Source: Pseudomonas laurentiana
GTDB lineage: Bacteria > Pseudomonadota > Gammaproteobacteria > Pseudomonadales > Pseudomonadaceae
Length of the DNA stretch: 64,000 nt
Assembly (NCBI RefSeq): GCF_014648275.1
Contig: NZ_BMQU01000016.1
Span: 80,975-144,974, forward strand
Reading direction: 5' to 3'
The position numbers and the translations under genes are program-made. The notes under the pieces are model-generated. The model worked only from the letters and a program-made list of their open reading frames with translations. It had not been told where the DNA came from and ran no database searches. Shown here piece after piece: positions 25,471 through 32,675 of the stretch. Positions within the stretch are counted from its first letter, which is position 1. The number at the start of each line of letters is the position of its first letter.

Positions 25471-25834
25471 CACTACTCCTCGCGGGTCTTGTATTTGACC
25501 CCTACCTTACCGATGTTTGTCCGGCGAAGGAACCTCTACGCCACCCCGTGCCCCAGTTGGACAAGGAGAAGAGCCTGGTCGTTCTCTGGCAGCTGAGCAC
25601 GTCACAAATAGTAGGCGCCCTGGGTGCAGATGCTCAAGGCGCTTGATCGTAAAAATCGCACACTAGCAGCAAGCCAGCCTCGTACACGTCAATGGCACTG
25701 ACAGTTACCGGATGTTCTAGTGCTGTGACGAAGGATGACCGTTAAAGTCACCTTTAGTTCAACAAAAAACAACACCTTAAGTAGAGACGGCAACCCGAAG
25801 AGCCTGCCGCTGAATGCTTTTCATACAGCGACTG

Positions 25835-25864
25835 TGTCGGTTTCGACAGAACCGTAATTTTTTT
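25835..25864 (+). terminator. Terminator-like hairpin with T7 upstream of oprI
   Basis: Two alternative short stems, TGTCG/CGACA (25835-25839, 25844-25848) or CGGTT/AACCG (25838-25842, 25850-25854), followed by seven T residues (25858-25864). No gene precedes it on this strand, so it would end an unannotated transcript. Confidence 0.4.
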
Positions 25865-25885
25865 CCAGTTCTTGCGCTGTGTCAG

Positions 25886-25913
25886 TTTACTTACTACAAG
25901 TAATGGGTAGTAT
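25886..25913 (+). promoter_or_regulatory. Candidate oprI promoter
   Basis: TTTACT (25886-25891), 16-bp spacer, TAGTAT (25908-25913). A dyad TTACTT-N5-AAGTAA (25887-25903) overlaps the -35 box and spacer. Predicted leader of about 60 nt. Confidence 0.4.
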
Positions 25914-25980
25914 GTACGCCGGCCAGTTTCTCTTTGTTGAGAGATGGCTCTTTAATAGAAAGTCCTTGAAGGGGAACACG

Positions 25981-32198: not shown

Positions 32199-32507
32199 TC
32201 ACGCGCGGGTGATCAGCCCTTGGCTAGCGATACGGGTCAGATGGCCAATGACCTCTGCGGCCTCTTCTGCCGAGGGCGACTGCACCACAGCCAAATCGAA
32301 ACGGTCATTGCCGAAGCCACCCAGTGCAACGTTGTTGTCGGCAAACTGGATCAGGAAGGCCGTGGCACGGCCTTTACGGCGAGGCCAACCATCGAGGTAA
32401 CGCAGGAGTGTCGGTTGATGCTGGCCGCCCAGCAGAATACGTGGCGTACGCGCCGCTTGGCTGGCAGGAAGGGGGCTTAGGCAAACACTGGTACGTGGGC
32501 AACTCAT
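32199..32507 (-). CDS. Uncharacterised 102-residue protein behind a candidate riboswitch
   Basis: I do not recognise a domain. The product is soluble, with a basic N-terminal half (PRILLGGQHQPTLLRYLDGW) and a C-terminal half containing VALGGFGNDRFDLAVVQSP and EEAAEVIGHLTRIASQGL, which reads as alternating beta and alpha segments. Codon use is like that of neighbouring genes, and GCGGAG stands 9 bp before the ATG at 32507. The gene has its own near-consensus promoter and a 130-nt structured leader (32508-32640), so it is probably real and regulated post-initiation. It converges with greB. The ligand and function are unknown. Confidence 0.7.
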   Translation of the reverse strand: MSCPRTSVCLSPLPASQAARTPRILLGGQHQPTLLRYLDGWPRRKGRATAFLIQFADNNVALGGFGNDRFDLAVVQSPSAEEAAEVIGHLTRIASQGLITRA

Positions 32508-32640
32508 GGAGTGATTCTCCGCCTCGCAGATCCCGCTGGGCTGCGGTGGGAGGCGTCACCGAACCAGCGTTTTAGCGGTATTCGGTCACTCGTTTCGGAG
32601 TGCCCTGCGCCCCGCAAGTAGCTGTTTAAATCGGCGCAAG
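32508..32640 (-). promoter_or_regulatory. Candidate SAM-II-like riboswitch leader
   Basis: Reading on the minus strand from 32640: stem P1 CTTGCGCC / GGCGCAGG (32640-32633 with 32611-32604); loop with GATTTAAAC; pseudoknot CAGC...GCGG (32624-32621, 32615-32612) with CCGC...GCTG (32578-32575, 32568-32565), the latter split by TAAAAC. This order of GATTTAA, TTGC and GCTAAAA around an H-type pseudoknot is the SAM-II core. A 5-bp hairpin (CACTC/GAGTG) and a closing ACCGAA/TTCGGT pair are insertions. Downstream, GCCT/AGGC and CGCAG/CTGCG stems end right before the GGAG ribosome-binding site (32520-32517). Confidence 0.6.
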
Positions 32641-32645
32641 TCAGC

Positions 32646-32675
32646 ATCCTAGAGAAGCGGCGGGCGGGCTGTCAA
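32646..32675 (-). promoter_or_regulatory. Sigma-70 promoter of the structured leader
   Basis: Perfect -35 TTGACA (32675-32670), 18-bp spacer, -10 TAGGAT (32651-32646). The expected start, 6-7 bp downstream, is 32639-32640, exactly the first base of the P1 stem. Confidence 0.75.

Follow-up and report, generated by a model that had tools for sequence, protein, structure and literature searches.

A 64,000-nt stretch of the Pseudomonas laurentiana genome (the window) holds, on its minus strand, a 102-aa gene behind a leader that a sequence-only reading had taken for either a divergent SAM-II riboswitch or a new pseudoknot class with another ligand. Which of the two is it, what would it sense, and how might it act on the gene downstream?

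Promoter and gene context of the leader

Reading the minus strand from 32675 to 32505, TTGACA, 18 nt and TAGGAT are followed by a leader of ~130 nt; the ATG lies at 32507. The perfect -35 and good -10 elements that had been claimed are indeed in place: this sigma-70-type promoter (32646–32675; TTGACA at 32675–32670, an 18-nt spacer, TAGGAT ending at 32646) agrees with the consensus at 10 of 12 positions and is the only promoter-like match between 32150 and 32800, where shuffled sequences average 0.1. Transcription would be expected to start ~6–8 nt downstream of TAGGAT, at or beside the first base of the predicted helix P1. Because a terminator-like hairpin (32711–32691) comes after the upstream doxX-type gene, the leader is probably the start of a separate transcript.

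The 102-aa gene (32199–32507, minus strand) encodes a short MetW-like protein, for which we coin the name mini-MetW. Since it converges with a greA/greB-type gene, it is probably transcribed alone, and the riboswitch most likely acts on the mini-MetW gene alone. Across a survey of 140 loci (three of them without a match for the small protein), the greA/greB-type gene was convergent in 92, listed on the same strand in 18 and not seen in 27, while a doxX-type gene lay upstream of the small gene in 85 and tatD in 70; missing neighbours are uninformative in this survey because the loci end at different points.

Architecture and conservation of the putative aptamer

All blocks of the proposed SAM-II order are found on the minus strand, within a SAM-II-type aptamer predicted from its conserved core, covariation and a SAM-II model match to span 32565–32638. 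The 5′ strand of P1, GCGCC (32633–32637), pairs with GGCGC (32607–32611) through five pairs that are invariant in all 56 copies of our family alignment (A1). An outer pair, U32638–A32606, is a standard pair in 16 of these copies (U-A in 10, A-U in three, G-C in two, U-G in one) and unpaired in 40. Loop L1, GATTTAA (32626–32632), would by homology lie as a strand in the major groove of P2. The pseudoknot helix P2a joins CAGC (32621–32624) to GCTG (32565–32568), with a G-C pair in 53 copies replaced by A-U in three. P2b takes its 5′ strand, GCGG, from TTGCGG (32612–32617; invariant in 56), whose two uridines pair with A32573 and A32572; its 3′ strand, CCGC, continues into UAAA (together 32571–32578), which by homology to SAM-II and SAM-V would be the ligand-contact strand. 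Loop L3 contains the 5-bp insertion that had been reported, a P3 hairpin of CACTC/GAGTG (32587–32602) that varies in length and sequence among species, and ends in GAATA (32579–32583; AAATA in most aligned copies), resembling the SAM-II of other gammaproteobacteria. Further downstream, P4 (32521–32554) pairs GCCTC with GAGGC (32550–32554 with 32521–32525) around an inner CCGC/GCGG hairpin, and the Shine-Dalgarno sequence GGAG (32517–32520) follows directly, in agreement with the proposed stem ending at this position. An extra closing helix, ACCGAA/TTCGGT, did not hold up: only 55% of alignment cells are paired, with no covariation, and a slid control does better. In three loci (L018, L021 and L236) the L1–P2a stretch is one base shorter and only AGC/GCT is present, so that P2a there has three pairs.

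A1 was drawn from loci L001–L152 and combines 51 copies below 94.5% identity, out of 145, with five that fell outside the first search pattern; substitutions were allowed in the sought motifs. One copy that was cut off (L119) was left out, as was L003, a candidate with three mismatches that reads as coding sequence. All 56 copies have GATTT, TTGC and GCTAAA without any change. A pattern that recovers 187 unique copies itself requires GATTTA, TTGC and GCTAAA, and for that reason we draw no conservation of these blocks from it. The wider alignment used below (A5) holds 46 of 193 copies.

Matches to the leader DNA were found in 36 of 57 genomes: every one of the 36 from the genus (the window's own included), and none among the 21 that represent other families of the order. 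GTDB contigs contain exact copies of the 21-mer GATTTAAACAGCTACTTGCGG, which runs across L1 and P2, in at least 120 stretches; among the 120 matches listed, 118 records are named Pseudomonas, one is a gammaproteobacterium and one 'Pantoea'. The last, Pantoea sp. Cy-639 (L136), has both the Pseudomonas element and the gene and is probably a misnamed record. With a model of the 56 copies (R1), a single copy was found in each of 94 Pseudomonadaceae genomes out of 148, representing 11 of the 19 genera sampled. Run on 194 genomes of the order, R1 matched nine, namely eight Pseudomonadaceae and, weakly, G044 (28.2 bits, E 4e-4). Leader folding energy is unremarkable, with z of -1.75 in the window (15 of 200 shuffles as good) and between -2.62 and -0.17 in four relatives; we give it no weight in the argument.

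Hairpin-free copies link the element to SAM-II

With SAM-II (SAM_alpha, RF00521) the element shares P1, the ATTT loop, the P2a/P2b pseudoknot, TTGC and GCTAAA, as well as a promoter just before P1, as described for metA in the available part of an earlier report (PMC1273637). The suggested search with Rfam models, SAM-II and its long-loop variant included, nevertheless returned no match to the element at the window up to E 5, and a low-threshold search of six further loci gave none at the element. One locus, L228, yielded a SAM_alpha match below threshold (25.1 bits, where the cut-off is 36; E 0.063 with 4227 families searched); Rfam gave no SAM_alpha match in L242, nor up to E 10 in L229 and L235. 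The cut-off was thus reached neither at the window nor in the other loci searched, which is a matter of score and not of a core feature.

Rfam misses the element because most copies carry a hairpin in L3, between the 3′ strand of P1 and AAATA-CCGC. L3 is 9–73 nt long in the 187 unique copies (median 47), and, compared with letter shuffles, 174 of 177 inserts of at least 20 nt have a folding z below -1. P3 is missing from L3 in four copies (L228, L229, L230 and L235).

These four copies supply the connection to canonical SAM-II. A scan of 299 genomes of the phylum for SAM_alpha matched 57, with none in the 12 Pseudomonadaceae genomes listed. From 26 of the resulting sequences, together with the G044 element found by R1 (L268), we assembled 27 canonical SAM-II below 93% identity (A4), all from outside Pseudomonadaceae, and built a second covariance model (R2). 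It was searched in the window and 33 of the more than 150 loci that bear the element (34 sources, 245,692 bases). In 34 of 34 sources its best match was the element, 11 of them below E 0.05, and the first match outside an element came at row 54 of 55, with E 7.1. All four hairpin-free copies were strongly found (52.4, 40.2, 35.4 and 34.8 bits; E 6.8e-10, 4.6e-7, 5.7e-6 and 8e-6), the first of these E-values being that of L228. The window copy scored 16.2 bits (E 0.15); like it, the other sources above E 0.05 were matched weakly, often over the 5′ half only.

SAM-II membership of the window copy thus follows a chain from canonical SAM-II through L228 to the window, the last step being orthology (same gene family, same core). 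Together, hairpin-free intermediates found by SAM-II models, identical pocket blocks and compensatory changes in P2a and P2b bear out the suggestion of a divergent SAM-II, and support assignment of the window element as a SAM-II riboswitch with a hairpin inserted in L3. Given this homology, a new class for another ligand does not appear to be needed.

Several features set the element apart from RF00521. Besides the L3 hairpin of most copies, it has one extra G between TTGCG and GGCGC, which makes P2b one pair longer; a Shine-Dalgarno-proximal hairpin follows the aptamer, without a terminator-like site; and the gene it would control is a short MetW homologue. SAM-II long loops (RF01726), listed for Bacteroidetes and marine samples in the accessible portion of a published account (PMC2864571), is likewise a SAM-II with longer loops but belongs to another lineage, and it matched neither at the window (E up to 5) nor in ten loci (E up to 10).

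The downstream gene encodes a short MetW homologue

Taken alone, the window's 102-aa protein has no match in Pfam, NCBIfam or the PDB. We built a profile (A3) from 64 of 66 picks among 199 copies, leaving out L151 and L245. The genomes that bear the small protein are the same 94 of 148 Pseudomonadaceae that bear the RNA, one of them (G373) with a weak match (E 1.7e-10); across 145 genomes of the order, the profile matched five, all Pseudomonadaceae. Median dN/dS is 0.087 over 941 pairs, the usable part of 4000 sampled among 155 genes of this length (102 aa), indicating purifying selection. Because it is found in the RNA's 94 genomes and has this low ratio, the 102-aa frame is a real gene.

Aligned by hhalign to 14 MetW proteins, the 64-member profile matched over nearly the whole small protein (probability 93.6%, E 2.1e-7), and BLASTP of the window protein against its own genome's MetW gave E 3e-4 for that single comparison. 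Scanning all of Pfam with the 64 members produced weak matches, most often to MetW (19 of 64, best E 0.0083) and then to Methyltransf_11 (11 of 64); one member matched cIII at E 0.0061, better than any MetW match. The best solved structure for the profile was a methyltransferase at E 0.44, and no PDB chain matched MetW at E 1e-10. Whole-genome profile runs also gave weak second matches over positions 59–100, of which the two examined, in G419 and G408, are MetW. A 95th genome, G464, was matched over positions 59–100 only, in a 485-aa frame containing LDLGCG-G; we left it out of the count of 94 because this match is very probably MetW.

By profile comparison, then, the small protein is a short homologue of MetW (PF07021), a methionine-synthesis protein that may assist MetX in acylating homoserine, and the earlier statement that the downstream gene has no known link to SAM needs revision. 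Residues 14–102 align to residues 14–118 of MetW, with ~15 residues fewer in the middle and an end after the IIT of IITFPNFGHW. The glycine-rich SAM motif DLGCG is replaced by LLGG-HQPT. In contrast to full-length MetW of ~200 aa, the gene is not next to metX; a true metX-metW pair lies elsewhere in the genome, with no SAM-II match there. According to the available sections of a 2014 census of methionine control, metW has been suggested to help homoserine acylation, and metXW is among the SAM_alpha targets in Bradyrhizobiaceae (PMC4239095).

SAM-II elements of other gammaproteobacteria

Four gammaproteobacterial loci (L185–L188) have SAM-II before metX, named by resemblance to the MetX of this genome, with a MetW homologue directly after it. 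In others SAM-II precedes metK (L184 by Pfam, L183 by resemblance) or metZ-like genes (L189 and L190, by resemblance). A shortened MetW under SAM-II in Pseudomonadaceae would fit a history in which an older control of metX-metW was lost or relocated.

The metK-associated elements lie at about 3000–3150 in L183 and L184, from two genomes in one family of the order; the census, in the part available, assigns metK to SAM-SAH in Rhodobacterales (PMC4239095). A canonical-looking SAM-II with P2a of GGTAAC/GTTACC was also seen at 1500–1556 of the plus strand in L268 (G044, from another family of the order), and in L285. It precedes a gene of 169–176 aa with only a weak Fer2_BFD match (E 0.022), beside WYL and HD-domain genes, and not a known methionine gene.

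A hairpin at the Shine-Dalgarno sequence as the proposed expression platform

P4 is the proposed expression platform. Its GCCTC/GAGGC strands are paired in 100% of A1 cells, and the 3′ strand GAGGC adjoins the Shine-Dalgarno sequence. One copy (L233) has a two-sided change to A-U, ACCTC/GAGGT; in L228, P4 reads AGCC/GGCT, assigned by eye only. We found no terminator-like site after the aptamer. The pseudoknot and P4 do not overlap, and the linker between P2a and P4 can pair either with the 5′ end, in a nested form discussed below, or with the inner strand of P4. Because P4 adjoins the Shine-Dalgarno sequence, no terminator-like site follows, pseudoknot and P4 are separate and the linker has these alternative partners, we lean towards control at translation that is OFF with SAM, a model that we hold with some reserve. 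A further helix, P5, beyond P4 toward the start codon is hinted at: its own strands beat swapped ones on the mean (2 of 5000 permutations as good), with pairing in only 38 of 63 copies.

Taking the parts together, the reading we consider likely is that a SAM-II riboswitch with an L3 hairpin binds SAM and controls mini-MetW, with high SAM lowering translation. SAM would bind the P1/P2 pseudoknot in a pocket like that of SAM-II and SAM-V. At high SAM the pseudoknot would hold, P4 would stay closed and translation would be low, whereas at low SAM P4 would open through competing pairings of the P2a–P4 linker and mini-MetW would be made. The protein might then help MetX/MetW to restore methionine.

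The same RNA and pocket could instead form an ON switch, in which SAM opens P4 and mini-MetW serves at high SAM as an inhibitor or decoy of MetX/MetW. Constrained folding is compatible with either direction: with the P2a strand blocked, P4 rose from 0.59 to 0.79 (88 of 186 copies up, 15 down), a shorter set-up gave 0.73 to 0.77 (48 up, 65 down), and the window copy's P4 hardly changed in either. The small protein also retains much of the first 118 residues of MetW without the SAM motif, as would suit a dominant-negative partner. Against this, the available part of the earlier report presents the SAM-II of metA as probably an OFF switch (PMC1273637), and SAM-II precedes metX-metW in the four gammaproteobacterial loci above. 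We regard an ON switch as unlikely.

The conserved pocket points to SAM as the probable ligand

In the 27 canonical SAM-II of other bacteria, the TT of ATTT, TTGC and GCTAAA are invariant. The SAM-V structure paper, in its accessible part, names the SAM contacts and calls SAM-II binding virtually identical (PMC6061858). SAM-V shares with our element a pocket near-identical to that of SAM-II, an H-type pseudoknot and, as proposed here, translational control; its Shine-Dalgarno sequence lies mostly within P2a (PMC6061858, same part), whereas here it comes ~44 nt after P2a. TTGC is preceded by C in 180 of the 187 copies and by A in seven, much as in canonical SAM-II (C in 23 of 27, A in four). 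By alignment, and leaning on the residue numbering of the SAM-II crystal structure, the likely counterparts of the contacts are, in ATTT, two of the uridines; in TTGC, the second U; and in GCTAAA, the U and the first and third A. All of them are invariant in the family. Because this pocket is conserved, the leader RNA of Pseudomonas and close relatives very probably senses S-adenosylmethionine.

An aptamer of this descent might have switched to another ligand, such as SAH or a different adenosyl compound, like the spermidine variants of SAM-I; riboswitch variants with new ligands do exist, as set out in the part of the source available (PMC10853860). The controlled gene is not a classical SAM-II target, and the L1/P2a/P2b spacing is unlike that of metX SAM-II, as such a change would allow. 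Yet the TT of ATTT, TTGC and GCTAAA are all kept, and the usual C before TTGC is also the commonest letter in canonical SAM-II, so that we give a change of ligand very little weight beside SAM.

Covariation and a competing fold

For P1, P2a and P2b (the last with its two U-A pairs), 88 to 100% of the A1 cells are paired. Most helix pairs in the family never vary, which counts neither for nor against them. Where covariation among homologues had been asked for, the pseudoknot provides some: in three of 56 copies (L016, L019 and L020) P2a reads CAAC/GTTG instead of CAGC/GCTG, and in one of the 46 copies of A5 (L241) P2b reads GCAG/CTGC. P1 shows none except at its outer pair, the one place where it varies within the family. 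Two-sided changes affect two pairs in A1, where shuffles give 1.1 and 73 of 500 reach as many; the covariation score of the structure, 0.013, is exceeded by slid controls at +1 (0.021) and +3 (0.022). In A5 such changes occur at five pairs, where shuffles give 1.2 (0 of 500 as high) and slid controls 0 to 3; the five include P2a, P2b (L241) and two P4 pairs, one of the latter coming from L228, whose P4 is misaligned in A5. Covariation support for the P2 pseudoknot is thin.

A nested pairing of GCGCCGA with TCGGTGT, in place of P1 and around P2a, P2b and P3, is also well paired (98.9% of A1 cells) and is the minimum-energy fold of L126, L147 and L016. The RNA might act in this form as a protein-bound leader or a thermometer with no small ligand, but several A5 copies, including L229, deviate in its 3′ strand yet retain the pocket, and the SAM-II homology would be left unexplained. 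As the working form we find it slightly less credible still than a change of ligand; beside the SAM-binding pseudoknot, the nested fold may be a competing free state. Least probable of all is that the conserved RNA, with its promoter-like site and strongly conserved leader, works chiefly in trans as a small RNA, with an incidental 102-aa frame, given the dN/dS of that gene and the fact that the 94 genomes (of 148) with the RNA are also those with the protein.

A possible SAM feedback in Pseudomonadaceae

The available part of the 2014 census, in which eight Pseudomonadaceae genomes were examined, gives SAM_alpha only in Rhizobiales and Rhodobacterales (PMC4239095), and a few SAM-II occurrences in other proteobacteria are noted in the part seen of the earlier report (PMC1273637). 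In the titles and abstract openings of the SAM-II and MetX/MetW literature we found no report of a Pseudomonas SAM-II element, most subscription papers lying outside this search. Should our assignment be correct, 11 of the 19 sampled genera of Pseudomonadaceae possess a SAM-sensing riboswitch, and a standard library can miss a riboswitch whose pseudoknot loop contains a hairpin. The SAM-sensing riboswitch would also control a protein family without a Pfam name, giving that family a testable role and offering a handle on MetX/MetW. A more tentative extension, for which we would put the chances somewhat short of even, is a SAM feedback of Pseudomonadaceae's own: through a hairpin-bearing SAM-II switch, SAM would govern a dedicated small MetW-like protein, and this protein, by binding MetX or MetX/MetW, would determine how fast homoserine is acylated, replacing the direct riboswitch control of metX-metW in some other gammaproteobacteria.

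Elsewhere in the window, Rfam matches the Pseudomonas sRNA P14 at 25810–25944 on the plus strand (94.1 bits); another match to it lies at 61–188 of L126.
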